Origin: an uncultured Lachnospiraceae bacterium | Lineage (GTDB): Bacteria > Bacillota > Clostridia > Lachnospirales > Lachnospiraceae | DNA length: 32,595 nt | Direction of reading: 5' to 3' | Assembly: GCA_947589095.1 (NCBI GenBank) | Contig: CANQBX010000044.1 | Location: 1-32,595 of the forward strand | Shown here: piece after piece, positions 6,979 to 21,355 of the stretch | Position numbering within the stretch: the first letter of the stretch is position 1 | Layout: each line of letters begins with the position of its first letter | Notes under the pieces: generated by a model | Database searches by the model: none | The model's input: only the letters and a program-made list of their open reading frames with translations | What the model was told of the DNA's origin: nothing | Position numbers and translations under genes: made by a program

Positions 6979-8322
6979 TTACTGTACGTCGGGCTGCTGC
7001 ACGAGGCCGTTTACATCCACGGTCCAGACGGTATCGTTGGCGTCCCTCACGTCCCGGAAGCCGGCGCCCAGTTCGGGATGCACGGTGGATCTGGATGTGG
7101 AGGAGGCTTTCTGGATCGTTCCGGAGGCGTTGACCAGATAGTTCTGTCCCTCAAAGGTTACCGGGGCATAGCGCAGGTCGCTGTCCGCGTCCAGACGTAC
7201 GCCGTGGTTATAGATGGCGTTTCCGTGGATGCCGTGGAAGCCCTGGCCGCGGGCGGAACCGTCGGTCTGGAAATACCAGATCTGGTTCATCTCCGTATCG
7301 TCGTTGAAAATGGTCTGCTTGCCTGTTTTCATGGCTCCGTTGTCTCCGAAATAATAGTTGGCGGCAGAACCGTCGTCAAGAGTCACGACTGTAAGGCCGG
7401 TCTGCATCTCGCCCCTGCCGTTGAAGGCGTAGCGGTCGGAACCGATGCCGAATACCTGGATGCCGCCGTTTGAGGCGTAGTGCGGTACGCCGCTCTTGAA
7501 ATAGAAGCGGAAGGTCTCATCCTCTTCCGAGACGCCCGGAATACCTGTGATCGTGAGCCATCCGGAGGCGCGCTTTCCGCTTTCCTCATAGTACTGATAA
7601 CCGGAAGCGGGTGCGGCGGAAGCGGCTGTGGCTGTGTCCGCCTGCTCTTCGGTGTTTTCGGCGGGAACCCTGTACCATCCGGTGATCATAACGCCGTCCT
7701 CGAAGGTGTAATAGGCGCCGCCGATCTTCTTATCCAGCTGGTTCTCGATCCTTCGGCCATGGCTGTCGAAGTAGGACCATGCGGTTGCGTCGCCGAATTC
7801 GTCGGTTTCCGCGGGGAGCTCGACCCAGCCCTTTTTCATGGCTCCGCTGCCGGCGAAACAGTAAGTGCTTCCGTCGATCTCGGTTAATCCGGTGGCCATA
7901 CGGCCCTCTTCGTCAAAGTAGTAGGTAACGCCGTCGATCTCCTTGAATTTGGAGGAAACCATCTGCCCGTTGGCGCCGTAGTAGAACCAGTACTGCGCGG
8001 GGGCCGTTTCATCCCACACATCTTCGTTTTCGACGGATACCCATTTATCTGCCGTGCGTTTGCCTTCCGCGTCCACATAGTATTCATTGACCTGGCGGTT
8101 CATTGCCATATTGCCGTTTTCGTCCAGGTAGTACCAGTCGTCCCCGTACTTCTTCCAGGTATCGGTCAGGGCGTACCCGTCGCCGTCGTAGTATTTCCAG
8201 TTTCCGTTTTCCTGCGTCCAGCCGGCGCTCTCCGCCAGAGCCGCGGAAGCGGAAACGGGAGCCACGGCGCATAATGCTGCCGCTGCGAAGACCGCAGCCG
8301 TCCATTTGATGGAATTTCTCAT
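6979..8322 (-). CDS. secreted cell-wall-binding-repeat protein
   Basis: This protein has 447 residues. A signal peptide (MRNSIKWTAAVFAAAALCAVAPVSASA) leads to an almost continuous array of aromatic/glycine repeats of the choline- or glucan-binding type, such as WKYYDGDGYALTDTW, WYYLDENGNM, TYYFDEEGRMATGL and YYTFEDGVMITGWY. The later units are longer and degenerate. There is no LPXTG motif and no recognisable catalytic domain, so attachment to the wall is probably by the repeats, and the role may be structural or adhesive. The start is supported by AAGGAG 10 nt upstream. The gene is divergent from the polysaccharide operon and is followed by a strong terminator. The repeat family call is firm; the ligand (choline, teichoic acid or glucan) is not known. 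Confidence 0.88.
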   Translation of the reverse strand: MRNSIKWTAAVFAAAALCAVAPVSASAALAESAGWTQENGNWKYYDGDGYALTDTWKKYGDDWYYLDENGNMAMNRQVNEYYVDAEGKRTADKWVSVENEDVWDETAPAQYWFYYGANGQMVSSKFKEIDGVTYYFDEEGRMATGLTEIDGSTYCFAGSGAMKKGWVELPAETDEFGDATAWSYFDSHGRRIENQLDKKIGGAYYTFEDGVMITGWYRVPAENTEEQADTATAASAAPASGYQYYEESGKRASGWLTITGIPGVSEEDETFRFYFKSGVPHYASNGGIQVFGIGSDRYAFNGRGEMQTGLTVVTLDDGSAANYYFGDNGAMKTGKQTIFNDDTEMNQIWYFQTDGSARGQGFHGIHGNAIYNHGVRLDADSDLRYAPVTFEGQNYLVNASGTIQKASSTSRSTVHPELGAGFRDVRDANDTVWTVDVNGLVQQPDVQ

Positions 8323-8560: not shown

Positions 8561-10447
8561 ATGAAGATAAAGGTTTCCGACTATATCGCCGGATGGCTTC
8601 CGGAGCATGGGATCACCCAGGTGTTTACAGTGACCGGAGGCGGAGCCATGCATCTGAACGACTCTCTGGGACATGAGAAGCGCCTTCACTGTCTTTATCA
8701 GCATCACGAGCAGGCGTGCGCCATGGCGGCGGAGAGTTACGCGCGGATCCATAATACCATTGCTGCCGTTTGCGTGACGACCGGGCCGGGCGGAACGAAC
8801 GCGATCACCGGAGTGGTGGGCGGCTGGCTGGATTCGATCCCGATGCTGGTGCTGTCCGGTCAGGTGCGGTATGATACGACAGCCCGCTGGTCCGGCGTCG
8901 GTATCCGCGCCATGGGCGATCAGGAATTCGACATTACGAAGGCGGTCGGATGCATGACCAAGTACAGCGAGATGGTGATCGATCCGGGGAGGATCCGGTA
9001 CTGTCTGGAGAAGGCTGTTTATCTGGCTTATTCCGGACGGCCCGGCCCGGCCTGGCTGGATATTCCGCTGAACGTCCAGGCGGCTTATGTGGAGACGGAT
9101 GAACTGGAGGGCTTTGACGCGGCGGCCTATGAGGCCGGAGACGGCGGGCAGGGGCTTCCCCCGAAGGTGACGGAGGAGACGGTCCGCAGGATCCTTGACC
9201 GGATCCGGCAGGCCAGACGGCCGGTGCTGAATGCGGGCAACGGTATCCGCATCGCCGGGGCGTATCCGGCGTTTGAACGGGTGGTCAGGCTTCTGGGCAT
9301 TCCGGTAGCGACCGGCTGGAACAGCCAGGATTGTATGTGTACGGACGACCCGCTCTATGTGGGGCGTGCCGGGAATATGGGCGACCGGCCGGGAAACTTC
9401 GCGGTCCAGAACAGCGATCTGCTGTTTTCCGTCGGAAGCCGCCTAAGCATCCGCCAGGTCGGTTTTAACTACAGGACCTGGGCCAGGGAGGCTTATACGA
9501 TCATCAACGATATCGATAAGGAAGAGCTGAAGAAGCCCAGCCTTCATGTGGATATGCCGGTTCATGCCGACGCGAAGGATCTGCTGGAGACGATGGAGAA
9601 AGTGCTCCTTACGGAGAGAACGCCGGTTTTTAACGGCGGAGAGGGCCTTAAGGGCATGAGCTGGCTGGAGACCTGCCGGATGTGGAAGGAGAGATATCCG
9701 GTGGTGACGAAGAAGCATATGGAACAGGACGACAGCCGCAGGGCCAATGTTTACGCCCTGGTTCAGGAGCTGAGCAGCCGCCTGCCGGAGAATCAGATCA
9801 CGGTGGTCGGCAACGGCTCCGCCTGCGTGGCCGGAGGACACGCCTATGTGATCCGGAAGGGGCAGCGCTTCATTACCAATTCCGCTATCGCGTCCATGGG
9901 ATACGATCTTCCGGCGGCGATCGGCGCGTGCATGGCGGCCTATGACCCGCGCTTCCGCCGGGAGGATGAGCCGGAGGATATTATCCTGCTGACCGGCGAC
10001 GGAAGCATTCAGATGAATCTGCAGGAGCTGCAGACGATCATCCACCACAGGATGCCGGTCAAGATATTCCTGATCAATAATGGGGGATATCATTCCATCC
10101 GCCAGAGCCAGAGGAATTTCTTCGAGGGGCCGCTTGTGGGCATCGGAGAGGACAGCGGGGATCTCAGCTTCCCGGATATGGAGAAGCTGGCGGCAGCCTA
10201 CGGATACCCGTATGTGAAGGCCTGCCATAACAGCCAGCTGGCGGCGGCGATTGAAAGGACGCTGGCGATGAAGGGCCCGGTGATCTGCGAGGTATTCGTT
10301 ACGACGGATCAGAATTTTGAACCGAAATCGGCCGGCCGGCGGCTTCCGGACGGGACTATGACATCGCCGCCGTTAGAGGATCTGTCGCCGTTTTTGCCGG
10401 ATGAGGAGATGGATGCCATGATGATCATTCCCAGGATCCGGGAGTAA
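8561..10447 (+). CDS. ThDP-dependent acetolactate-synthase-like enzyme
   Basis: This 628-residue protein has the three-domain fold of the acetolactate synthase/pyruvate oxidase family. The N-terminal pyrimidine-binding domain holds the activating glutamate (Glu50 in HHEQA) and the TTGPGGTNAITG segment. The C-terminal domain has the ThDP/Mg motif from GDGSIQMN (from about residue 479) to INNGGYHS. The family joins or decarboxylates 2-keto acids such as pyruvate. It is not in an ilv operon: it heads a polysaccharide cluster and is followed by a sugar epimerase/C-methyltransferase and a secondary alcohol dehydrogenase. That context recalls YerE, which transfers an acetyl unit from pyruvate onto a 4-keto-deoxysugar nucleotide. 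A biosynthetic acetolactate synthase is less likely, because no small subunit or ilv gene is present. The ribosome binding site is weak. Family call firm, substrate inferred. Confidence 0.88.
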   Translation: MKIKVSDYIAGWLPEHGITQVFTVTGGGAMHLNDSLGHEKRLHCLYQHHEQACAMAAESYARIHNTIAAVCVTTGPGGTNAITGVVGGWLDSIPMLVLSGQVRYDTTARWSGVGIRAMGDQEFDITKAVGCMTKYSEMVIDPGRIRYCLEKAVYLAYSGRPGPAWLDIPLNVQAAYVETDELEGFDAAAYEAGDGGQGLPPKVTEETVRRILDRIRQARRPVLNAGNGIRIAGAYPAFERVVRLLGIPVATGWNSQDCMCTDDPLYVGRAGNMGDRPGNFAVQNSDLLFSVGSRLSIRQVGFNYRTWAREAYTIINDIDKEELKKPSLHVDMPVHADAKDLLETMEKVLLTERTPVFNGGEGLKGMSWLETCRMWKERYPVVTKKHMEQDDSRRANVYALVQELSSRLPENQITVVGNGSACVAGGHAYVIRKGQRFITNSAIASMGYDLPAAIGACMAAYDPRFRREDEPEDIILLTGDGSIQMNLQELQTIIHHRMPVKIFLINNGGYHSIRQSQRNFFEGPLVGIGEDSGDLSFPDMEKLAAAYGYPYVKACHNSQLAAAIERTLAMKGPVICEVFVTTDQNFEPKSAGRRLPDGTMTSPPLEDLSPFLPDEEMDAMMIIPRIRE

Positions 10448-10460
10448 GGGGGACGAACGA

Positions 10461-12602
10461 GTGGAGATTGTCGTTACGGGAGCCACCAGCTTTCTGGCAC
10501 GCCCGCTGATCGGGCGGCTGCTTGGGATGGGGCACCGGGTATACGCTGTGGTCCGTCCCGGTTCTGCCAATCTGGGATTGCTGAAGAGGGAAACGGGAGA
10601 GGATCCGCGGCTTCGGCTGATCGAGCTGGATATGGACCGGTTCGACCGGCTTGACCGGCTTCTTCCGGGATCCTGCCGGATCTTCTTTCATTTCGGGTGG
10701 GACGGTTCCGGAAGCGAGAACCGCAAGGACGCCGCGGTGCAGCAGAAGAATGCGGAGAATTCCGTAAAGGCGCTCGCCGCAGCCCGGCGGATGGGCTGCC
10801 GCCGATTCATTTTCAGCGGTTCCCAGGCGGAATACGGGATCTGCAGCGGCGAGATGACGGAGGAGACGGAATGCAGGCCTGTGTCGGAATACGGCAGGGC
10901 GAAGCTGGAGTTCTGCCGCCGCGCCATGCGGATGACCGGAGAGTGGAGAGACAGCGGAGCGTCGGAGCTGGAATATATCCACGCGCGGATATTCAGCGTG
11001 TACGGACCGGGAGATCATGCGTGGTCCCTGGTAAATTCCTGCCTGAGGACGTTTGCGGCGGGACAGACCATGGAGCTGGGCGACGGCACCCGGATGTGGA
11101 ATTATCTGTATATTGACGATCTTGTGGAGGGGCTTCTGGCCCTGGCCTTTTGCGGGAATACGTCCGGCGGTATCTATAATCTGGCCGGAGACCGGACGGC
11201 TACCAGACCCCTGCGGGATTATGTGGAGGAGATGCGTATCCTGTGCGGGGGAAGGGGAAACTGCGTTTACGGTAAAGTCCCGCCCAACGCGGAGGGAGGG
11301 GCCCGCCTGTGTCCATCGATCGATAAGATCACGGCCGCGACCGGCTGGCGGCCGGCGATCGGTTTTGAAGAGGGGATTCGGAGAATGCTTAACGGAAAGA
11401 AACGCGGGCAATGTATCGTGTGCGGACGGAAGCTGCCGCATACCGCGCTGATGCGTTTTGAGGGGATGCCGGCCTCAGCCCAGGATATTCCGGGGGCGGA
11501 GGATCTGGCGGAGGATCGAGGGATCGAACTGGCTCTGTATCAGTGTCCGTCCTGCGGTCTGGTTCAGCTTGACTGCGAGCCGGTGGCATATTACCGGGAT
11601 GTGATCCGCTCAGGCGGATATTCTACCACCATGGCGGAGCTGCGCGCGCGTCAGTACAGTCATCTGATCGGGCGTTACCGTCTGGAAGGCAGGAAGTTCC
11701 TTGAGGTGGGCTGCGGCCGCGGGGAATTCCTTCAGATGCTGAAGAATTTCCCGGTGGAGGGTTACGGTATCGAGCACAGGCAGGAGCTGGCCGGTATGGC
11801 GAGAGACGCGGGGCTGAACGTGTTCGACGGCTTTACGGAAACGGCGGAGACGGTGCTCGGAGACGCGGGGCCCTACGACGTGTTCCTTTCCTTTAATTTT
11901 CTGGAGCATCAGCCGGAGCCGGGGGTGATGCTGGACTGTATCCGGAATAATCTGACGGATTCGGGCATGGGGCTGATCACTGTGCCCAGTCTGGAGTATA
12001 TACTGCGGTATGACGGGTATTATGAGCTGATCCGGGATCATATCGCCTACTATACGTTTGAGACGCTGCGGTATCTTCTGGAGCACCATGGGTTTGCGGT
12101 GCTGGAGGAGGAGACCGTGAACCGGGATACGCTGGCGGTGATCGTGCGGAAGGCCGCTTCCGGCGCCTCCGATGCTTTCACGGGGGATGAGACGCAGCCT
12201 GCGGGTTCTTCTGCCGTTTGCGCGGATGTCTCCGGCTGGAAGACAAGCTATGAACGGATCCGCGGCCAGATGCTTGCGCTTGCAAAGCAGTGTGCGGCGC
12301 AGGGGAAGACGCTGGCGGTCTGGGGGGCCAGCCATCAGGGGTTTACGCTGGTGGCCACCACCTGTCTGGGCGAGAAGGCGTCTTATATCATCGATTCCGC
12401 TCCGTTTAAGCAGGGGCGCTTCGCGCCCGCTTCCCATCTGCCCGTCGTGTCGCCTCAGTCGGCGGCCGAAGATCCGCCGGATGTGATCCTGATCGCGGCG
12501 CCGGGGTATACGGATGAGATCCGCGGAGAGATCCGCAGGCGGTTCGGGACGGGCGTGGGGATCTGGACACTGCGCAGCGAGAAGCTGGAGGAACTGACAT
12601 GA
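10461..12602 (+). CDS. bifunctional NAD-dependent sugar epimerase/dehydratase and C-methyltransferase
   Basis: Residues 1 to about 312 are an extended SDR sugar-nucleotide enzyme: Rossmann GATSFLA, a FSGSQAEYG segment and YGRAK as the catalytic Tyr-x-x-x-Lys. Residues from about 316 match a TylC3-type sugar C-methyltransferase: a zinc-binding pair CIVCG...CPSCG, a SAM-binding EVGCGRGEF (about 416), an HIAYYTFETL motif, and the C-terminal domain with WGASHQG and SAPFKQGRF. In the characterised family these enzymes methylate C3 or C5 of a 4-keto-deoxysugar nucleotide. Both halves look complete, so this is a true fusion. GTG is the start, after a purine-rich AAGGGGGACG. The stop overlaps the next start as ATGA, so expression is coupled to the dehydrogenase. 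The exact sugar is unknown. Confidence 0.87.
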   Translation: MEIVVTGATSFLARPLIGRLLGMGHRVYAVVRPGSANLGLLKRETGEDPRLRLIELDMDRFDRLDRLLPGSCRIFFHFGWDGSGSENRKDAAVQQKNAENSVKALAAARRMGCRRFIFSGSQAEYGICSGEMTEETECRPVSEYGRAKLEFCRRAMRMTGEWRDSGASELEYIHARIFSVYGPGDHAWSLVNSCLRTFAAGQTMELGDGTRMWNYLYIDDLVEGLLALAFCGNTSGGIYNLAGDRTATRPLRDYVEEMRILCGGRGNCVYGKVPPNAEGGARLCPSIDKITAATGWRPAIGFEEGIRRMLNGKKRGQCIVCGRKLPHTALMRFEGMPASAQDIPGAEDLAEDRGIELALYQCPSCGLVQLDCEPVAYYRDVIRSGGYSTTMAELRARQYSHLIGRYRLEGRKFLEVGCGRGEFLQMLKNFPVEGYGIEHRQELAGMARDAGLNVFDGFTETAETVLGDAGPYDVFLSFNFLEHQPEPGVMLDCIRNNLTDSGMGLITVPSLEYILRYDGYYELIRDHIAYYTFETLRYLLEHHGFAVLEEETVNRDTLAVIVRKAASGASDAFTGDETQPAGSSAVCADVSGWKTSYERIRGQMLALAKQCAAQGKTLAVWGASHQGFTLVATTCLGEKASYIIDSAPFKQGRFAPASHLPVVSPQSAAEDPPDVILIAAPGYTDEIRGEIRRRFGTGVGIWTLRSEKLEELT

Positions 12603-13702
12603 AAGCGTTTGTACTGAAAGAACCGGGAGTTGTGGGATGGGCCGATGTGCCGGAGCCGGAGCTGACGCCCTATGGGGCTGTTCTGGAGCCGGTAGCGGCC
12701 GCCCCCTGTTCATCGGACGTCCATACGGTCTTCGGAGGCGGTTCGCGGAAAGCGCCGAATCTGGTGCTTGGGCATGAATGCGTGGCCAGAATATGCAGGG
12801 CCGGAAGCCTGGTCCGGGATTTTACTCCCGGGGAGATCGTGGCGGTGCCTGCGATCACGCCGGACTGGAGGGATCCGGGGATCCAGGAGGGCAATTATAA
12901 GCATGCGGCGGAACCGTTTTCGGGGCACCGGCTGGGCCGAAGCCGGCCGGGGGTTTTCGCGGAGCGGTTCGCCATACCGGATGCGGATACCACCCTGGCG
13001 AAGATCCCTGCGGGAGTAACCATCGAACAGGCGCTGATGTGCGTAGATGTAGTGACGACCGGCTTTACCGGCGCGGAATACGCGGATATCAGGTTCGGGG
13101 ATACGGTGGTTGTGCTGGGAATCGGCCCCATCGGCCTGATGGCGGTGGCCGGTGCGGGACTGCGGGGAGCCGCCCGTATCCTGGCGGTGGGGAGCCGCCC
13201 GGTCTGCGTGGAGCGGGCTCTGGAATTCGGCGCTACGGAGGTGCTGGATTATCATAACGGCGATATCGTAAAGCAGGTGCTTGACCGGACCGGAGGCCGG
13301 GGAGCCGACAGCGTCATCGTCTGCGGCGGCGGCGACGAGGTGTTCGCCCAGGCGGTAGACATGGTCCGTTACGGCATCGGAACGGTTTCGAATGTAAATT
13401 ATTTCGGGGGCACGGGGAATCTCCCGTTTCCCAAGTTCTCGGGCGGCCGGGGGATGGCCGGCAAGACCATTCACACGGAACTGGCGGCCGGCGGCCGGGT
13501 GCGGATCGAACGGATGATGGCGATGGCCGCGGCCGGAAGAATATCGCCGGAGAGGCTGATAACCCACCGCCTGTCCGGTATGGACAGAATCGAAGAGGCA
13601 TTGTATCTGATGAAGGACAAACCACAGGACCTGATCAAGGTTATGGTCAGTGAGAAAAGAGGCACGGATGAAGACAGTCAGCGTCGTTGTACCCTGCTAT
13701 AA
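12599..13702 (+). CDS. NADPH-type zinc secondary alcohol dehydrogenase
   Basis: This 367-residue medium-chain dehydrogenase resembles, nearly colinearly, the secondary alcohol dehydrogenase of Clostridium beijerinckii. The zinc ligands Cys37, His59 and Asp150 occur at the same numbers (PCSSD, LGHE, CVDVVTTG), and the residues that set NADP preference in that enzyme, Gly198-Ser199-Arg200 and Tyr218, are all present. The known family reduces methyl ketones such as acetone and butanone. Its place here, directly after a ThDP carboligase and a sugar C-methyltransferase, suggests that it reduces a C-acetyl (methyl ketone) branch on a sugar rather than working in solvent metabolism. The start overlaps the upstream stop by 4 nt, and its own 3' end overlaps the next gene by 35 bp. 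Confidence 0.9.
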   Translation: MKAFVLKEPGVVGWADVPEPELTPYGAVLEPVAAAPCSSDVHTVFGGGSRKAPNLVLGHECVARICRAGSLVRDFTPGEIVAVPAITPDWRDPGIQEGNYKHAAEPFSGHRLGRSRPGVFAERFAIPDADTTLAKIPAGVTIEQALMCVDVVTTGFTGAEYADIRFGDTVVVLGIGPIGLMAVAGAGLRGAARILAVGSRPVCVERALEFGATEVLDYHNGDIVKQVLDRTGGRGADSVIVCGGGDEVFAQAVDMVRYGIGTVSNVNYFGGTGNLPFPKFSGGRGMAGKTIHTELAAGGRVRIERMMAMAAAGRISPERLITHRLSGMDRIEEALYLMKDKPQDLIKVMVSEKRGTDEDSQRRCTLL

Positions 13703-14702
13703 CGAGGAAGAGAACGTAAGAGCGATGGCGGATGCCCTGCGGGAGATGTTCGCGGCGGAGCTTCCCGGCTACCGGTACGAGATCATTTTCATAGACAACG
13801 ATTCCAGGGACAGAACCAGAGAGATCATCCGGGAGATCTGCGCGGAGGATCCGGATGTCCGCGGAATCTTTAATGCGAAGAACTTCGGACAGTTCAACTC
13901 CCCCTATTACGCCATGCTGCAGACCAGCGGCGACTGCACAGTCCTGCTGGCGGCGGATTTCCAGGATCCGGTGGAACTGATACCGCAGTATGTAAGGGAG
14001 TGGGAGAACGGCTACAGGATCGTCATCGGAATCAAGAAATCCAGCCGCGAGAATAAATTCATGTACTGGCTGCGCGGCTGCTATTACAAGACGATCAGAA
14101 AGCTGTCCGACGTGGAGCAGATCGAGCAGTTTACCGGTTTCGGCCTTTATGACGCCGCGTTTATCCGGGTGCTTAAGGAACTCGGCGATCCCACGCCGTT
14201 TCTCAGGGGCATCGTCGCGGAGCTGGGGTTCAAAAGGAAGGAGATTCCCTATGAACAGCCGGAGCGGCGGGCCGGCAGGACCAGCAATAATTTTTATCGG
14301 CTTTATGACGCCGCCATGCTGAGCATAACCTCCTATACGAAGGCGGGAATCCGTCTGGCGACGTTTATCGGCGCTATAAGCTGCGCGGTAAGCTTCGTGG
14401 TGGCTGTTATCTATCTGATCATGAAGCTGATCTGGTGGGACCGTTTCCCGGCCGGCATGGCGCCCATGCTGATCGGTATGCTGTTTCTCGGATCGGTGCA
14501 GATATTTTTTATCGGCATGATCGGCGAGTACGTACTGTCGATTAATCAGAGGGTAATGAACCGGCCGCTGGTAGTGGAGGAAGAACGGATCAACTTCCCG
14601 GAGGAGAAAGCGAAGCCGAAGGAAAAAGAAAAAAAGAAAAAGAAGGACGTCCGGGAAGAGCATGCAAAAGCCGGCAGGAAGAGGACGGAAGGTAATATAT
14701 GA
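13668..14702 (+). CDS. GtrB/ArnC-like polyprenyl-phosphate glycosyltransferase
   Basis: This is a family 2 glycosyltransferase of 344 residues. It begins VSVVVPCYNEEEN, continues with FIDNDSRD and a metal-binding AADFQDP, and ends with two membrane helices (about 230-256 and 265-290). That architecture is typical of enzymes loading a sugar onto undecaprenyl phosphate at the inner membrane face, for later transfer by a GT-C enzyme. A lysine-rich tail of about 45 residues follows the helices and should be cytoplasmic. The ATG at 13668 is chosen because AAGAGG precedes it by about 5 nt; a GTG at 13650 in the same frame lacks a site. It overlaps the dehydrogenase gene by 35 bp. No GtrA flippase or GT-C partner is seen in the window. 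Confidence 0.88.
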   Translation: MKTVSVVVPCYNEEENVRAMADALREMFAAELPGYRYEIIFIDNDSRDRTREIIREICAEDPDVRGIFNAKNFGQFNSPYYAMLQTSGDCTVLLAADFQDPVELIPQYVREWENGYRIVIGIKKSSRENKFMYWLRGCYYKTIRKLSDVEQIEQFTGFGLYDAAFIRVLKELGDPTPFLRGIVAELGFKRKEIPYEQPERRAGRTSNNFYRLYDAAMLSITSYTKAGIRLATFIGAISCAVSFVVAVIYLIMKLIWWDRFPAGMAPMLIGMLFLGSVQIFFIGMIGEYVLSINQRVMNRPLVVEEERINFPEEKAKPKEKEKKKKKDVREEHAKAGRKRTEGNI

Positions 14703-16924
14703 AGTATAAGATCGATGTCGTCAGGATACGGGAGAACTCGATCCAGATTAACGGCTGGGTCATCGGCAGGACGCCGGAATCAAAACCGGCGTTTCGCGTG
14801 CTTGACGAAAACCATGAAAATGTGGAGATCAAATACGTTTCTACCAGAAGAGACGACGTAAGTCAGATCTATTATAAGAAGATTTATGACAGGGATTTCG
14901 GTTTCGACATCCAGTTCCCTTATGAGAGGGGACGCAGCTACCGGCTGCTGATCCGCTGCGACAACAAAACAAGCCGGATCAAATTCAATGAAGAGCTGAT
15001 CGCGAAACGTTCCAGCGTTGCTTATAAGCGGCTGGAAAAGCTCCGCGATCTGATGAATATGGAGACAGTCCGTGTGGCTGTGGATTTCGGAAGAAAGCAT
15101 GGCCTGCGGGCGCTGTTTTTGAAATCGAAGCACAAGCTGCAGGGAATTGACAATGACTATGAGTACGCGGAATGGTATAATCTGACGAAGCCGGCGGAGG
15201 AAGAGCTGGCACGGCAGAGGGCGGAGGATGCGTCGCGGGGACCGCTGCTGTCCATTGTCATGCCGGTCTATAAGGCGCCGCCGGAATTTCTGCGCGTCAT
15301 GCTGGATTCCATTCTGGCTCAGACCTATTCGAAATGGGAACTGTGCATTGCCGACGGAAGCCCGAAAGGTGAGGAAGCGTCGGGGCTTGTGGGGGAGTAT
15401 GCGGAGAAGGACGCCCGCATCCGATACCTGCTTCTCGGGAAAAACGGAGGTATTTCGGAGAATACCAACGCGGCCATCGGACAGGCCCGCGGCGATTATA
15501 TCGTACTGGCGGATCAGGACGACGCCATGCCGGAGCATGCCCTTTATGAGATCGCGAAGGCTATTCGGGAGCATCCGGAATGCGATGTGATCTATTCGGA
15601 TGAGGATAAGATGGACATGGACGGAGGGGCGCTTTTTGATCCGCATTTCAAGCCTGATTTTAATCCGGATCTGCTCTGCAGCGTGAATTATATCTGCCAT
15701 CAGTTCGTGGTGAAACGGGAACTGATGGAGCGGGTGGGAGGTTTCCGCGGGGAATATGACGGCGCGCAGGATTACGATCTGATCTTCCGGTGTACGGAGG
15801 CGGCTGAGGGAATCTTCCATATTCCGAAGGTATTATACCACTGGCGCTGTCACCAGGGCTCCACGGCCAGCAATCCCCAGAGCAAGCTGTACGCCTTTGA
15901 AGCCGGATCCCGCGCGATCATGGATCATTACAGGCGGATGGGCATTGCCGCGGAGAAGGTGGAGAAGGGCGTAGACTACGGGATCTACCATACAAAGTTT
16001 ACGCTTCAGGGCGAGCCGCTGGTATCGGTGATCATCCCGAACAAAGACCACAGCGCGGATCTGGATCTGTATCTCCGTTCGGTAATCACAAAATGTACCT
16101 ACGGGAATCTGGAGTTCATCGTAGTTGAGAACAACAGCACGGATCCGGAGACCTTTGCCTATTATGACAGGATACAGAAGGAGTTTCCCCAGGTTCATGT
16201 TGTGCGCTGGGAAAGGGAGTTTAATTATTCCGCCATTAATAATTTCGGCGTGAAGCATTCCCATGGGGAGTATCTGCTGTTTTCCAACAATGATATCGAA
16301 CCCATCGCGGAGAATTTTATTGAGGAGATGCTGGGCTTCTGCCAGAGAGACGATGTCGGGGCCGTCGGGGCCAGACTCCTGTATCAGGACGGTACGATCC
16401 AGCACGCGGGGGTTGTTGTGGGGTTCGGCGGCATTGCCGGACATACGTTTATCGGGCTCCATGAAGCGGAGAACAGCTATTTCCACCGGGCCATGTGCGC
16501 GCAGGATTACAGCGCGGTTACAGCCGCCTGCATGATGAGCAAACGGTCTGTCTTCGACGAGGCGGGAGGCTTTTCCGAGGATCTTGCGGTGGCCTTCAAC
16601 GACATCGATTACTGCATGAAGGTGCGCGGCCTGGGAAAACGGATCGTCTATGCGCCCTTTGCCACGCTGTACCATTATGAATCCAAGTCCAGGGGGCTTG
16701 AGGATACGCCGGAGAAGGTGGCCCGCTTCAACCGCGAGGTGGCGAGATTTGCGAAGAAATGGCCCGATATCCTGCGGGATGGGGATCCTTATTATAATCC
16801 GAACCTGACCCTGCGTAAGTCGAATTTCGCGCTGCGGGATCTTCTGAAGGAGAAGATCGGGGAACCGTATCCGATGCCGGAGGAGATAAAGCGTCTCATG
16901 GAGGAGACACAGGACGGCCCGTGA
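14699..16924 (+). CDS. double-domain family 2 glycosyltransferase
   Basis: This protein has 741 residues. Residues 1 to about 110 form a beta-rich domain (DVVRIRENSIQINGWVIG...) like an accessory, possibly carbohydrate-binding, module. A first GT-A domain begins near 182 (SIVMPVYKAP) with ADQDD near 271-275. A second begins near 441 (VSVIIPNKDHS) with FSNNDIEP near 528-534 and a FNDIDYCMKVRGLG motif. Such tandem enzymes build polysaccharide backbones by adding two sugars, or alternate linkages, from nucleotide sugars; rhamnan synthesis enzymes of the RgpF/WbbL type are similar. No membrane helix is obvious. The start overlaps the upstream stop as ATGA. Acceptor and donor are unknown. Confidence 0.9.
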   Translation: MKYKIDVVRIRENSIQINGWVIGRTPESKPAFRVLDENHENVEIKYVSTRRDDVSQIYYKKIYDRDFGFDIQFPYERGRSYRLLIRCDNKTSRIKFNEELIAKRSSVAYKRLEKLRDLMNMETVRVAVDFGRKHGLRALFLKSKHKLQGIDNDYEYAEWYNLTKPAEEELARQRAEDASRGPLLSIVMPVYKAPPEFLRVMLDSILAQTYSKWELCIADGSPKGEEASGLVGEYAEKDARIRYLLLGKNGGISENTNAAIGQARGDYIVLADQDDAMPEHALYEIAKAIREHPECDVIYSDEDKMDMDGGALFDPHFKPDFNPDLLCSVNYICHQFVVKRELMERVGGFRGEYDGAQDYDLIFRCTEAAEGIFHIPKVLYHWRCHQGSTASNPQSKLYAFEAGSRAIMDHYRRMGIAAEKVEKGVDYGIYHTKFTLQGEPLVSVIIPNKDHSADLDLYLRSVITKCTYGNLEFIVVENNSTDPETFAYYDRIQKEFPQVHVVRWEREFNYSAINNFGVKHSHGEYLLFSNNDIEPIAENFIEEMLGFCQRDDVGAVGARLLYQDGTIQHAGVVVGFGGIAGHTFIGLHEAENSYFHRAMCAQDYSAVTAACMMSKRSVFDEAGGFSEDLAVAFNDIDYCMKVRGLGKRIVYAPFATLYHYESKSRGLEDTPEKVARFNREVARFAKKWPDILRDGDPYYNPNLTLRKSNFALRDLLKEKIGEPYPMPEEIKRLMEETQDGP

Positions 16925-16957: not shown

Positions 16958-17971
16958 ATGTCAGAGAAACAGGTAACCGTCATTATTCCCAACTATAACG
17001 GACTTCCGTTTATGGGCATCTGCATGGATGCGCTCAAACGGCAGAGGTGCCGGAGTTTTGAGGTGCTGGTAGTCGACAACGGATCCACCGACGGAAGCGC
17101 GGAATGGCTGAGATCGCAGGGGATCCCGGCGATATTCCTGCAGGAAAACACCGGCTTTTCAGGGGCGGTCAACGCGGGTATCCGTGCGGCGAAAACGCCG
17201 TATGTACTCCTGCTCAACAACGATACCGAGGCGGATCCGGATTTTGTGGGAGAGCTTCTCGCCGCGGTCAGCCGTTCGGAACGAATATTCGCGGTCAGCA
17301 GCAAGATGATCCAGATGTACCACCGGGAGCGGATGGACGACGCAGGAGATATGTACAGTCTGATGGGCTGGGCGTATCAGCGGGGCGTCGGGCGAAGCAG
17401 CAGGGGCTACAACCGTCCCATGGAGGTCTTTTCCGCCTGTGCGGGCGCCGCCATCTACCGGAGGGATGTATTTGACAGGATCGGCCTTTTTGATGAGATG
17501 CATTTCGCGTATCTGGAGGATATGGACGTCTCCTTCCGCGCGAAGATCTGCGGCTATCACATCCGCTATTGTCCGAAGGCGGTGGTTTACCACGTCGGGA
17601 GCGGAACCAGCGGCTCCCGGTATAATCCGTTCAAGGTGCGGCTGGCGGCCCGCAACAGCGTATATCTGAATTACAAGAATATGCCTCTGGGGCAGCTGCT
17701 TGTCAATTCCCCGATGATAGCCGCCGGAATCGTTCTGAAATATATGTTTTTCCGCCGGATCGGCTTCGGGAAGGAGTACATTGGGGGGCTTAAGGAAGGA
17801 ATCGCGACGGCCGGCCGCTGCAGGAAGGTTCCGTTCCGGCCGGAATTTATGGGAAATTATCTGGCGGTCGAGTGGGAGCTGATCGCGGGAAGCGCGCTCT
17901 ATGTCTGGGAGTTTTCCATGCGGCAGCTTGGAAAGCTGTTTCGCACGGGGCCAAATGTTACCAAAAATTAA
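16958..17971 (+). CDS. family 2 glycosyltransferase, WbbL/rhamnosyltransferase-like
   Basis: This protein has 337 residues: N-terminal VTVIIPNYNG, donor-binding VVDNGSTDGS, metal motif LLNNDTEAD (about 86), and the acceptor-side CAGAAIYRRDVFDRIG...LEDMDVSFR typical of the WbbL group that includes dTDP-rhamnose transferases. A hydrophobic stretch (LLVNSPMIAAGIVLKYMFF) near residue 250 may dip into the membrane. GGGAGAG lies upstream of the ATG. The gap to the previous gene is 33 bp, so it belongs to the same operon. Rhamnose as donor is only a family guess. Confidence 0.87.
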   Translation: MSEKQVTVIIPNYNGLPFMGICMDALKRQRCRSFEVLVVDNGSTDGSAEWLRSQGIPAIFLQENTGFSGAVNAGIRAAKTPYVLLLNNDTEADPDFVGELLAAVSRSERIFAVSSKMIQMYHRERMDDAGDMYSLMGWAYQRGVGRSSRGYNRPMEVFSACAGAAIYRRDVFDRIGLFDEMHFAYLEDMDVSFRAKICGYHIRYCPKAVVYHVGSGTSGSRYNPFKVRLAARNSVYLNYKNMPLGQLLVNSPMIAAGIVLKYMFFRRIGFGKEYIGGLKEGIATAGRCRKVPFRPEFMGNYLAVEWELIAGSALYVWEFSMRQLGKLFRTGPNVTKN

Positions 17972-18050: not shown

Positions 18051-19469
18051 ATGATAAAGAATAATCAGCAGATGCTGAACCGGCTGCATGTTTTTCTGGA
18101 CGCGGTTGTGATGGCTTTGTCCTATGTACTGGCGTGGGGAGTGCTGGTGCTTCGGACCGGGTTCTTTGCTCCGGACCGGGGGCTGCTTTCGCCGCGGTAT
18201 TATTTTTCGGCGCTGGTTGTCATTATTCCGCTGTATCTGATTTTATATACATGTTTTCATTTATACGAGCCGAAGCGGATCCGGTCGAAGCGGTTCGAGG
18301 TTGCGAATATATGCAAGGCGAACCTGTTCGGGCTGATGATCCTGGCGGTAGTATATTTTCTGCTTCGCAAGAACCCGTTCCTGCAGGAATTCTCGACACG
18401 GATGGTATTTTATTTCTTCGCCATTAATATCGTGACGGGATGCGCGGAGCGTGCGGGGATCCGTGTGCTTCTGCGCACCATGCGGGCGAAGGGGTACAAT
18501 CAGAAGCACATCCTGCTTATCGGTTACAGCAGGGCCGCGGAGAGCCTGATCGACCGGATGAAGGCGAATCCGGAGTGGGGATACCAGGTCGAGGGGATAC
18601 TGGACGACAGGGAGCCGGCGGGGAAGGAGTACAGGGGAGTGGAGGTCATCGGGACGATCGGCGGCCTGGACTCGATTCTGGAACAGAATACCCTGGACGA
18701 TATCGCCATCACCCTGGGACTGGACGAATACGGGCATCTGGAGGCGATCGTGGCCGCCTGTGAGAAGTCCGGCGTACACACCATGTTTATTCCGGATTAT
18801 AACAATGTGATCCCTACCAGGCCGTATACGGAGGATCTGCAGGGGCTTCCGGTCATCAATATCCGCCATGTGCCGCTTAATTCCACCTTCAACAGGCTGG
18901 TAAAAAGAGCGGTGGATATCGCCGGCGCCGTGGCGGGTCTTATCATTTTCTCTCCGGTCATGCTGATAACCGCGGCGGTGATCAAGATCACGTCTCCGGG
19001 TCCCCTGATCTTTAAGCAGGAGCGGGTGGGACTTCACAACCGTTCGTTCCAGATGTACAAATTCCGTTCCATGGACGTGCAGAAGCCGGCGGATGAGAAG
19101 GATAAATGGACGACTCCGCACGATCCGCGCGTGACGCCCTTCGGGCATTTCATACGGAAATTCAGTATTGACGAGATACCGCAGTTCGTTAATGTTCTGA
19201 AGGGCGAGATGAGTCTGGTAGGCCCCCGGCCGGAACGGCCATTTTTTGTGGAAAGATTTAAAGAAGAGATACCGAGGTATATGATCAAGCATCAGGTGCG
19301 TCCCGGAATGACCGGATGGGCGCAGATCAACGGATACAGGGGGGATACCTCCATCACGAAACGGATCGAATGCGATCTGTACTATATTGAGAACTGGACG
19401 TTGGGACTGGATTTTAAGATCATATTTCTGACGATTTTTAAAGGCTTCATCAATGAGAATGCATATTAG
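18051..19469 (+). CDS. undecaprenyl-phosphate sugar phosphotransferase (WbaP/CpsE-like)
   Basis: This 472-residue polytopic protein matches the long form of the initiating polyprenyl glycosylphosphotransferases. Four to five N-terminal membrane helices (to about residue 140) are followed by a nucleotide-binding-like middle domain (ILLIGYSRAAESL) and the catalytic C-terminal domain starting near 280 with a re-entrant helix. Hallmark motifs are KFRSM (337-341), DEIPQ (about 375) and VGPRP (about 391). It transfers a sugar-1-phosphate, usually glucose or galactose, from UDP-sugar to undecaprenyl phosphate, which starts the repeat unit. A modest CAGGGTGA site precedes the ATG. It lies between the glycosyltransferases and the LCP ligase, in keeping with a Wzx/Wzy-type pathway, though no flippase or polymerase is seen here. 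Confidence 0.93.
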   Translation: MIKNNQQMLNRLHVFLDAVVMALSYVLAWGVLVLRTGFFAPDRGLLSPRYYFSALVVIIPLYLILYTCFHLYEPKRIRSKRFEVANICKANLFGLMILAVVYFLLRKNPFLQEFSTRMVFYFFAINIVTGCAERAGIRVLLRTMRAKGYNQKHILLIGYSRAAESLIDRMKANPEWGYQVEGILDDREPAGKEYRGVEVIGTIGGLDSILEQNTLDDIAITLGLDEYGHLEAIVAACEKSGVHTMFIPDYNNVIPTRPYTEDLQGLPVINIRHVPLNSTFNRLVKRAVDIAGAVAGLIIFSPVMLITAAVIKITSPGPLIFKQERVGLHNRSFQMYKFRSMDVQKPADEKDKWTTPHDPRVTPFGHFIRKFSIDEIPQFVNVLKGEMSLVGPRPERPFFVERFKEEIPRYMIKHQVRPGMTGWAQINGYRGDTSITKRIECDLYYIENWTLGLDFKIIFLTIFKGFINENAY

Positions 19470-19504: not shown

Positions 19505-21355
19505 ATGAGTTTTGATTATGATGATGATTTAGATGTGCCGGTTCGGGGCCCGGAGAGCCGCCGGGGAACGGAAGGACGGAATGAGCGGCCGCGCCGGATG
19601 CCGGCGAAGGAGGAATCGTTCAGCGACCGGGTGGCCCGGATACGTCTGGAGCTGGACCGGAAGAAAAAGCGCAGAAGGCGCATCATTGCGATGATAATAG
19701 CCGAGTGCATTGTTCTGACGGGGATTTTTTCCTATGCGTATATGAGCCGGCTGTGGAATTTAATGCCGAAGCCGAATGTTAATAAGGAAAATGTGGAGAA
19801 TACGAATATTTCTCTGGAATCGATCAACAAGATGCAGGGGTATTGGATGATCGCGATCTTCGGCGTGGATTCCGGAACCGGAACCTCCAGCGCCCGCGGC
19901 AATTCCTCCGATGTGAATATGATCGCGTGCATCAACCAGGATACCGGCGAGATCCGGCTGGTCTCCGTCTACCGCGACACGTATCTTAAGGTCAACGATA
20001 AGGGGACTTACCGCAAATTTAATTACGCGTACTCGGAAGGCGGTCCGGAGCAGGCGCTGAAGATGCTGAATGAGAATCTGGATCTGAATATTACAGAGTA
20101 TATTATTTTCAACTGGAAAGCAGTGGCGGACGGAATCAATATTCTGGGCGGCGTGGATATGGAGATCACCAAGCCGGAATTTAAGTATATCAACGCGTTT
20201 ATTACGGAGACCGTGCAGGAGACCGGAGTGGCGTCCGTACACTTAAAGAGCGCGGGCATGAACCATCTGGACGGGATCCAGGCTGTAGCCTACGGACGTC
20301 TGCGCCTGATGGACAGCGATTACCAGCGCGTGGAGAGGCAGAAGAAGGTTATAGAAGCCGCCTTTGCCAAGGCCAAGAAAGCGGATTACGGGGTTCTTAA
20401 TAATATTCTTACGGTGTGCCTGCAGGAGGTCATGACGAATCTGGATTTTGTGGATCTGACCAACGCCGCGCTGAATATGACCAAATACCACATCGGGGAA
20501 ACGGCCGGTTTCCCCTTCGAGAGAAGCGAAGCGAATATGGGAAAGGCCCGGGGAGCCTGCATCATTCCGCAGTCGCTTGAATCGAATGTAAGCGAGCTTC
20601 ACCAGTTTCTGTTCGGGGACGAGGGCTACGAGCCGTCGTCTGCCGTAAAGAATATCAGCCAGAAGATATCTTCTGATTCAGGCGTTTACGCGGTGCAGAG
20701 CAAACCGGCTTCGACGACGGCGGCTTCCCAGCCCGAAACCGAACCGGAAGAGAGCGCGGCGGAAGAGTCGTCGGAAGTGCCGGAAACGGATGAGAACGGC
20801 GTATTTGTCGTTCCGGTTCCGGGCATCGGAGAGACGGATGAGAACGGCGAGCTGATCGACGGACCTGAGCCTGATAATACGAATCCTTCCGACGGCGCTT
20901 ACGGACCTACGGATCCGCATACCGGCTTGACGCCCGCATATCCCGGCGGACAGACACCGGGAGGCAGCGCGTCCCAGGGAACGACTCCGTTTATACCGGA
21001 AGAATCCGGCCCCGGGATCGGGCCCGGAACAGTCGGGGGACCGACCTCCGCGCCGGCCGGTTCGGAGAATAATAACGGCGTGGGAGGCCCCGGAGGGGCG
21101 ACAGCGCCGGGAGGAAGCATAACCCCCGGAGACAGCGTGACGCCGGAAGGGAACGCGGGGCCGGGTATCGGAACAACTCCGGGAGAGAACGCAGGGCCGG
21201 GCATCGGTACGACTTCGGGCAGCCCGGAAGGGCAGACAGGTCCTGCCGGAGGAGGCGGTCCGCTGGGCGCAGCGGGCGGAAGCGATACGGATACCGGCGT
21301 TATCACGGGACCGGGAGAAGGCTCGGAGAGCGGGCCGTTTGCGACCGGAGATTAA
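19505..21355 (+). CDS. LCP-family glycopolymer ligase with a long Gly/Pro-rich tail
   Basis: This protein has 616 residues. A charged cytoplasmic head (1-58) leads to one membrane helix (about 60-80) and an extracellular LytR-CpsA-Psr domain (about 110-315). The domain has the family residues: GNSSDVNMIACI, LVSVYRDTYL (Arg-Asp) and RLRLMDSDYQRVERQK (Arg and Asp of the active site). LCP enzymes move glycans from undecaprenyl pyrophosphate onto peptidoglycan. Here the domain is followed by an acidic Ser/Glu stretch and then a Gly/Pro/Thr-rich tail of more than 200 residues containing two copies of a 12-residue unit, an unusual extension that may span the wall. It follows the initiating transferase by 35 bp and probably attaches the product of this cluster. 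Confidence 0.92.
   Translation: MSFDYDDDLDVPVRGPESRRGTEGRNERPRRMPAKEESFSDRVARIRLELDRKKKRRRRIIAMIIAECIVLTGIFSYAYMSRLWNLMPKPNVNKENVENTNISLESINKMQGYWMIAIFGVDSGTGTSSARGNSSDVNMIACINQDTGEIRLVSVYRDTYLKVNDKGTYRKFNYAYSEGGPEQALKMLNENLDLNITEYIIFNWKAVADGINILGGVDMEITKPEFKYINAFITETVQETGVASVHLKSAGMNHLDGIQAVAYGRLRLMDSDYQRVERQKKVIEAAFAKAKKADYGVLNNILTVCLQEVMTNLDFVDLTNAALNMTKYHIGETAGFPFERSEANMGKARGACIIPQSLESNVSELHQFLFGDEGYEPSSAVKNISQKISSDSGVYAVQSKPASTTAASQPETEPEESAAEESSEVPETDENGVFVVPVPGIGETDENGELIDGPEPDNTNPSDGAYGPTDPHTGLTPAYPGGQTPGGSASQGTTPFIPEESGPGIGPGTVGGPTSAPAGSENNNGVGGPGGATAPGGSITPGDSVTPEGNAGPGIGTTPGENAGPGIGTTSGSPEGQTGPAGGGGPLGAAGGSDTDTGVITGPGEGSESGPFATGD
21149..21220 (+). repeat. two tandem 36-bp repeats in the LCP tail
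   Basis: Units 21149-21184 and 21185-21220 encode [GE]-N-A-G-P-G-I-G-T-T-[PS]-G. They lie within a longer Gly/Pro-rich tail and look like recent duplication. Confidence 0.85.

Follow-up and report, generated by a model that had tools for sequence, protein, structure and literature searches.

We analysed a 32,595-nucleotide stretch of contig CANQBX010000044.1 from an uncultured Lachnospiraceae bacterium (GenBank assembly GCA_947589095.1), hereafter the window, in which three plus-strand genes at positions 8561-13702 encode a thiamine diphosphate (ThDP) enzyme, a fusion of a short-chain dehydrogenase/reductase (SDR) with a sugar C-methyltransferase, and an alcohol dehydrogenase (ADH). All three genes are present, open and tightly spaced: 13 bp separate the ThDP gene from the fusion gene, the fusion and ADH genes overlap by 4 bp, and the 3′ end of the ADH gene overlaps the 5′ end of a GtrB-like glycosyltransferase gene. 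The initial annotation of this DNA had described three coupled genes at the head of a polysaccharide operon, and that description holds, with three GT2-family proteins, a WcaJ-type transferase and an LCP ligase encoded downstream. In gut bacteria related to Hungatella, the operon probably builds an unusual branched sugar for a cell-wall glycan, and our results suggest that an optional enzyme pair adds one carbon and yields two alternative versions of this sugar.

For comparison we used the best 80 of 313 relatives (the named loci). The nearest of these 80, whose ThDP enzymes share 86-88% identity with that of the window, are uncultured Lachnospiraceae, and Hungatella, Enterocloster, Lacrimispora and Lachnoclostridium are among the more distant ones. 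In 62 of the 80 loci, SDR, methyltransferase and second reductase genes come after the ThDP gene, and the SDR and methyltransferase matches are fused in the same frame, with no stop between them, in seven; the gene set is therefore neither a chance arrangement nor an assembly error. Most relatives that have the methyltransferase encode it apart from the SDR. In the window, the fusion gene (10461-12602, 713 aa) has Pfam matches to Epimerase, Methyltransf_23 (residues 392-549) and Methyltransf_14 (residues 592-690). Promoter and terminator scans gave counts near the mean of shuffled sequence (10 against 8.1, and 12 against 10.6, respectively).

Table 1. Predicted features of the operon and its divergent neighbour, in window coordinates.
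Feature	Coordinates	Strand	Remarks
Cell-wall/choline-binding-repeat type surface protein	6979..8322	-	Divergent conserved neighbour; homology cluster of 18
YerE-like ThDP carboligase	8561..10447	+	628 aa; Pfam TPP_enzyme N, M, C; nearest PDB entry JanthE
SDR domain, fusion residues 1-315	10461..11405	+	PF01370 at residues 3-242; extended SDR
TylC3/TcaB9-type sugar C-methyltransferase domain, fusion residues 316-713	11406..12602	+	PF08484, PF13489
NADP-type zinc secondary alcohol dehydrogenase (ADH)	12599..13702	+	367 aa; second reductase, altered pocket
GtrB/ArnC/PgfS-like polyisoprenyl-phosphate glycosyltransferase	13650..14702	+	ATG at 13668 is an alternative start
Double-domain GT2 glycosyltransferase (GT2x2)	14699..16924	+	PF00535 in two stretches; position kept in relatives
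GT2 glycosyltransferase (GT2b)	16958..17971	+	PF00535; position kept in relatives
WcaJ-type undecaprenyl-phosphate glucose phosphotransferase	18051..19469	+	TIGR03023, 497 bits (cut-off 410.75)
LCP-family glycopolymer transferase	19505..21355	+	PF03816, 99.1 bits; TIGR00350, 82 bits (cut-off 62.3)

The divergently encoded surface protein may bind the glycan of the operon, since 18 homologues, the window's own included, sit upstream of ThDP genes in related loci. One of these homologues matches PspA/PspC models below their cut-off.

A probable YerE-like carboligase and its likely acceptor genes

Among PDB sequences, the ThDP enzyme scored highest against 8rph (390.9 bits), which is JanthE, a YerE-like enzyme, according to PMC12188165; the next match, an acetolactate synthase, scored 212.2 bits. 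The alignment with JanthE spans residues 2-622 and takes in the C-terminal SPPLEDLSP tail, whereas the alignment with acetolactate synthase stops before it, and a loose C-terminal pattern occurs in 84 of the 125 ThDP homologues of the tree set and is absent from the acetolactate synthase that roots the tree. The enzyme carries GDG...NN at residue 479 and HHEQ at residue 48; the glutamate of this latter type of motif is catalytic in ThDP enzymes, and YerE itself is a flavoprotein. In a fasttree phylogeny of 126 ThDP sequences, rooted on the acetolactate synthase of the window's own genome, JanthE falls at an open fork among distant relatives, on long branches that make its exact place unsure, and two ThDP homologues found beside rfb genes (L154 and L156) fall outside that fork. 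Judged by these similarities, the window enzyme is very probably a YerE-like carboligase. Its assignment to a branched-sugar pathway, as originally put forward, is borne out by this match and by its genomic partners, which are genes for a CDP-3,6-dideoxy-4-ketohexose.

The enzyme was also sought more widely. A draw across the class gave a ThDP match of 1e-100 or better in 27 of 341 genomes, of which 21 lie outside the family, and a plasmid search gave two matches, at 31% identity, one of which is annotated as acetolactate synthase. Among the matches listed, a search of the open-licence literature found no paper on this pathway in Lachnospiraceae.

In Yersinia, the acceptor of YerE is CDP-4-keto-3,6-dideoxy-D-glucose, as stated in a 2025 review (PMC12247030). 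The window's own genome encodes two glucose-1-phosphate cytidylyltransferases (RfbF) that are over cut-off, two CDP-glucose dehydratases (RfbG) and two RfbH proteins. Both RfbH and CDP-glucose dehydratase passed their cut-offs in each of 30 genomes, own genome included, that were chosen for a window-type ThDP locus (RfbF was sought in the own genome only). In a survey of 299 genomes of the family, RfbH was over cut-off in 89 of 96 genomes with a YerE-like match (best E-value 1e-90 or lower, with 8e-77 as the nearest score beyond that limit) and in 10 of 203 without one (Fisher p = 2e-55, uncorrected for descent; RfbH identified by NF011936, 729 bits, on one representative). At least two of these ten (G085 and G158) have a distant ThDP homologue beside rfb genes, namely L154 and L156. 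At the level of loci, 37 of 108 fetched by a family search hold at least two of rfbF, rfbG and rfbH within 9.5 kb of the ThDP gene; these rfb-type loci contain RfbH in 35 cases and a GtrB-like gene in 28, and the methyltransferase in none. It counts against the pathway proposed below that the window itself contains no rfb genes, the genome's own copies lying elsewhere. We regard a CDP-3,6-dideoxy-4-ketosugar as the likely acceptor, with good confidence.

Two other regions of the same genome contain such genes. A second CDP-3,6-dideoxyhexose set (rfbF, rfbG and RfbH) lies at C49:1-20000 (L049), together with three proteins of about 600 residues that are alike at their starts and have no assigned function. 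One of the genome's rfbG-rfbH pairs lies in another glycan locus (L163, C8:20000-39900), along with genes for a LicD protein, a second PgfS/ArnC-like transferase and a protein resembling phosphoheptose isomerase, whose score of 145 bits is below cut-off.

The methyltransferase and second reductase as an optional, coupled pair

Conservation of the three genes together had been set beforehand as a test, and the trio does recur. We pooled the window with the 80 named loci and with 43 of the 108 loci from the family search, and scored as complete those that run from the ThDP gene through the GtrB-like gene with no RfbH in the locus. Among the 83 complete loci, 35 have the methyltransferase and the ADH with the ThDP gene, and 31 more have a second SDR in place of the ADH; 16 have neither methyltransferase nor second reductase, one has the methyltransferase alone (L191) and none has a reductase alone. 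Co-occurrence on this scale led us to reject the idea that the trio stands together by chance alone. Both traits change seven times on the ThDP fasttree, and six of seven independent pairs are concordant and none opposite (sign test, p = 0.031). The named loci by themselves comprise 62 with both, one with only the methyltransferase, ten with neither, none with only a reductase where the GtrB-like gene is present, and seven that are cut off or reduced (a weak SDR match in L195 being scored as a reductase). The family-search loci and the window (109, from genomes partly shared with the named loci) include 57 complete ones, 13 with both, 44 with neither and none mixed.

The ADH and the second SDR, which occur together in none of the 80 named loci, are mutually exclusive and unrelated second reductases. 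The ADH stands beside the ThDP gene only where the methyltransferase does, L131 excepted, and its slot is taken by the second SDR in other genera. An apparent exception in genome G088 (L058) has its ADH directly before a GtrB-like gene on another contig (L272), and L108, with a distant ThDP homologue and rfbF nearby, has both ADH and methyltransferase in a different order. Several observations run counter to strict coupling or to the pathway proposed below. The cut-down locus L131 has the ADH without the methyltransferase, L191 has the reverse, and three loci with close ThDP homologues (L192, L193 and L206) lack the methyltransferase and have none of these glycosyltransferases adjoining; in addition, sequence drift of the SDR, the GtrB-like transferase and the ThDP enzyme, examined as a clue to step order, was not significantly tied to methyltransferase presence (permutation fractions 0.08, 0.18 and 0.36). 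We hold the coupling of methyltransferase and second reductase to be close to certain.

The methyltransferase half of the fusion combines Methyltransf_23 and Methyltransf_14 with an N-terminal zinc domain, as is characteristic of the TylC3 type. It contains two CxxC pairs and an EVGCGRG motif, matches sugar 3-C-methyltransferases in the PDB at 78.8 bits and below, and reaches 19.8 bits against Methyltransf_13, under the cut-off of 31.3.

The ADH is 49% identical to the secondary ADH of Thermoanaerobacter. Residues C37, H59 and D150, which we take to be the catalytic zinc ligands, and R200 and Y218, presumably the NADP residues, are kept in all 34 cluster ADHs. Two positions that we assume line the ketone pocket have changed: W110 is replaced by H in 31 of the 34 (the window included), N in two and V in one, and C295 by A in 31 and G in two, with C kept in one. 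I49 is S in all 34. Among 150 genomes we found 15 other ADHs of the family, three of which (L270, L271 and L272) lie in or with such loci. The remaining 12 keep W110 in eight cases and have F or I in four and H in none; 11 come from genomes without a YerE-like match, and the last, G019, has a YerE-like gene on another contig. The altered pocket at W110 and C295 fits a substrate unlike acetone. The earlier assignment to the methyl-ketone-reducing type stands as regards the family, and the enzyme would not be an ordinary member of it.

Each reductase type goes with a distinct form of the GtrB-like transferase. We refer to this gene as PgfS as a label only, as it scores 158.5 bits against NF047588, under the equivalog cut-off of 500; its near full-length matches are the GtrB-type sll0501 (141.8-144.6 bits) and ArnC (95.5-106.4 bits). 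In the PgfS tree, one branch, with support of about 99-99.8, separates all 34 ADH loci from all 32 second-SDR loci. Reductase type changes once on this tree and four to six times on the trees of the other genes (six on the ThDP tree). Forcing the ADH loci together (30 against 30, a group defined after the first tree was seen) was rejected by approximately unbiased (AU) tests on the three genes covered, the C-methyltransferase (CMT; p = 0.0006), GT2b (p = 0.0005) and WcaJ (p = 3.5e-9). In alignments of 31 against 31 loci, from which L057, L093, L095 and L264 had been dropped beforehand, 20 columns of PgfS and one of the SDR were diagnostic of reductase type, and none of ThDP, CMT, GT2x2, GT2b or WcaJ; with those 20 columns removed, the PgfS tree shows two changes. 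Two results weigh against a functional match: the 11 loci without a second reductase lie on both sides of the PgfS branch (six and five), so that either form is kept, and within a reductase type PgfS similarity does not track reductase similarity in any special way (partial r 0.17 and 0.15).

The pairing could instead reflect mere linkage during recombination, with the ADH and the second SDR making the same product. The two genes are adjacent and overlapping, and few changes of reductase type are recorded, six on the ThDP tree. However, the methyltransferase gene is equally close (the 4-bp overlap in the window) and carries no such signal in either the AU test or the column count, and the diagnostic PgfS residues include 92, 97, 99 and 101 (numbered from the GTG start), just ahead of the ADFQDP motif. 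We consider linkage without a difference in product a possible but rather unlikely explanation.

Proposed pathway and alternatives

Gene content and homology incline us, by a modest degree, towards a scheme of five steps that would produce one branched CDP-sugar for a wall-linked glycopolymer. RfbF, RfbG and RfbH, encoded elsewhere in the genome, would supply CDP-4-keto-3,6-dideoxy-D-glucose, and the ThDP enzyme would add an acetyl unit, presumably derived from pyruvate, to C-4. The SDR domain, in the YerF position, would act as the default ketoreductase. Where present, the C-methyltransferase and ADH would work after carboligation on the same sugar, by C-methylation and then reduction, with a propionyl branch converted to 1-hydroxypropyl as the simplest outcome. 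The ADH and the second SDR would give different products, probably of opposite hydroxyl configuration, and the matching PgfS form would load the finished CDP-sugar onto undecaprenyl phosphate.

A propionyl branch is the simplest product because C-4 is quaternary, which leaves the acetyl methyl as the sole carbon able to enolise, barring prior oxidation of a ring hydroxyl; a 1-hydroxypropyl product in particular is a doubtful proposition. One difficulty with the scheme is that two oxidoreductases for one branch ketone are one more than the simplest chemistry calls for, so that either the first SDR must do something else or an additional oxidation must take place.

Two sister loci bear on whether one sugar is made or two. 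L264 contains in a single run rfbF, rfbG, rfbH, GtrA (PF04138), ThDP, SDR, methyltransferase, second SDR and GtrB-like genes and a gene for a PMT_2-type protein; with one sugar-lipid synthase in the run, one product is its simplest reading. L266 has rfbF, rfbG, rfbH and GtrA in the same order, with no methyltransferase and no second SDR. The two loci share 96.2% identity in the ThDP enzyme, 78.2% in the GtrB-like transferase and 34.5% in the first SDR. We read methylation as following carboligation because the ThDP enzyme is so nearly identical in L266 despite the missing methyltransferase. Complicating this comparison, the SDR, methyltransferase, second SDR and PgfS of L264 may have been acquired as one block. 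On balance, the methyltransferase pair probably acts on the same sugar as the carboligase. The stretch L264:6118-17690, from the glucose-1-phosphate cytidylyltransferase to the PMT_2 protein, is a self-contained decoration cassette well suited to reconstitution.

Alternatively, the operon could make two sugars, a yersiniose-type one by the ThDP enzyme and SDR, and a C-methyl 3,6-dideoxyhexose by the methyltransferase and ADH through C-methylation and then 4-ketoreduction, which is the order in mycarose-type pathways. Coupling of a C-methyltransferase to a ketoreductase is what such a route needs, and the indifference of the ThDP enzyme to methyltransferase presence agrees with it. This is nevertheless unlikely, given that the four glycosyltransferase genes stay the same whether or not the pair is present (the search was confined to these four), that the L264 run has one sugar-lipid synthase, and that the SDR-methyltransferase fusion of the window and of seven named loci suggests one route.

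The initial annotation had cast the ADH as a YerF substitute that reduces the C-acetyl branch and the SDR domain as an epimerase. The ADH does belong to the secondary-alcohol/methyl-ketone family, and the SDR half (motifs GATSFLA and YGRAK) matches epimerase models best. Yet 32 of the 37 rfb-type loci have an SDR no more than 4.5 kb from the ThDP gene and none has an ADH inside 9.5 kb, the 16 loci without the methyltransferase all lack a second reductase, and the ADH pocket is changed. Of the 108 homologous loci, 71 have an SDR match above 100 bits no more than 4.5 kb from the ThDP gene, and the wall-operon loci keep the SDR directly after the ThDP gene. Since the SDR adjoins the ThDP gene in rfb-type loci, its half of the fusion is the better candidate for the YerF-position ketoreductase, a role we think it rather likely has, and the ADH as YerF substitute is improbable.

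Two further observations concern the SDR. Replacement of the first SDR along with the methyltransferase was rejected for the wall-operon set, as the SDR tree has six methyltransferase-state changes against seven on other trees. In L193 and L195, the latter from another genome of the window's genus and ending at a contig edge, a more distant SDR comes after the ThDP gene, and the DNA covered shows no sign of the wall operon. Separately, the rfb-ThDP stretch of L068, used to look for the yersiniose cluster of E. coli O3 and its YerF, had no E. coli match.

Ordinary metabolism, with acetolactate or acetoin as the product of the ThDP enzyme and butanediol or some small secondary alcohol as that of the ADH, draws on the broad match to acetolactate synthase models and on the acetone- and acetoin-sized ketones that the secondary ADH family reduces, and we rejected it as highly improbable on the score of 309 bits against TIGR00118 (acetolactate synthase; cut-off 538.35), the proximity to JanthE, the separate acetolactate synthase of the genome (736 bits, passing that cut-off, and the sole other protein found there with an N-terminal ThDP domain), the glycan operon context, the co-occurrence with RfbH and the loss of W110.

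Taking the scheme to its full extent, we tentatively suggest an undescribed wall sugar of gut Lachnospiraceae: a 3,6-dideoxyhexose whose ThDP-made branch would be lengthened by an S-adenosylmethionine (SAM)-dependent C-methyltransferase (e.g., to 4-C-1-hydroxypropyl) within one nucleotide sugar, and whose two unrelated reductases would set alternative configurations, exchanged between lineages with the matching transferase as a module of surface-glycan variation.

Comparison with known systems

YerE-like enzymes are wanted as catalysts in the synthesis of chiral tertiary alcohols. According to the 2025 review (PMC12247030), more than 200 have been predicted, and for the great majority no sugar structure is known. 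The set found here is a large, testable YerE-like family in gut bacteria, and leads us to expect that Hungatella, Enterocloster and Lacrimispora have unusual branched sugars in their wall glycans. L264 and L266 offer a natural comparison in which the tailoring module stands alone, and strains of both reductase types are available from culture collections; Lacrimispora strains such as L. celerecrescens and L. xylanisolvens are of the ADH type, and L190 and L253 exemplify loci with the second SDR. If the pairing with PgfS reflects stereochemistry, the configuration of the branch could be read from sequence.

The nearest solved relative of the ThDP enzyme is JanthE of Janthinobacterium sp. HH01, which aligns with it through the C-terminal tail; JanthE is described with a CDG motif in its ThDP site in the available excerpts of PMC12247030 and PMC12188165, which name no physiological substrate for it, whereas the window enzyme has the canonical GDG. 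ErwE and the caryophyllose-type enzymes for longer branches belong to the same subclass (PMC12247030), and many relatives of the window enzyme adjoin an HMGL-like aldolase and a HAD phosphatase, as if they used longer hydroxylated 2-oxoacids. Beside the window ThDP gene we saw neither an HMGL-like aldolase nor a HAD phosphatase, which makes pyruvate the more likely donor.

The HMGL-like protein (a cluster of 34) and the HAD phosphatase (a cluster of 19) lie near YerE-like genes in L059, L094, L096, L101, L115 and others, and by analogy with erwiniose may make longer hydroxylated 2-oxoacid donors; one HMGL-like member scored 83 bits against an aldolase model, below its cut-off of 229. In L078, L079, L082, L085 and L086, two CoA-ligase-like genes flank a third gene upstream of the ThDP gene, and one of these ligase-like members scored 105 bits against an AMP-dependent ligase model with a cut-off of 300.

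In paulomycose synthesis (PMC4753412), the ketoreductase Pau7 reduces a C-4 acetyl branch, the job proposed here for the SDR, although Pau7 is an aldo-keto reductase and the proposed makers of the branch there are two proteins, Pau11 and Pau12, rather than a single YerE-like enzyme. The ADH shares its zinc ligands, R200 and Y218 with the NADP-dependent secondary ADHs of Thermoanaerobacter and Clostridium, and differs from them at W110, C295 and I49 as described above. With the TylC3/TcaB9 methyltransferases, the window protein has in common both Pfam domains and the four-cysteine zinc site pattern. Known members act on dTDP-4-ketosugars, with ring C-3 or C-5 as the site of methylation, whereas the window pathway would use CDP-sugars, perhaps with the ketone on the branch.

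The closest pathway as a whole is that of yersiniose A in Yersinia pseudotuberculosis (ddhABC/rfbFGH, yerE and yerF). Common to both are a YerE-like ThDP enzyme and genes for CDP-4-keto-3,6-dideoxyglucose in the genome, and the loci of some relatives join rfb, ThDP and SDR genes. The window differs in being a Gram-positive wall-glycan operon with WcaJ and LCP proteins, in having its rfb genes elsewhere, as against the 37 rfb-type loci, and in adding a C-methyltransferase and a second reductase, with the SDR fused to the methyltransferase. The YerE-like pathway is of a known kind; what is new is its place in a Gram-positive wall glycan, the optional methylation-reduction pair, and the two swappable reductases, each with its own glycosyltransferase form.

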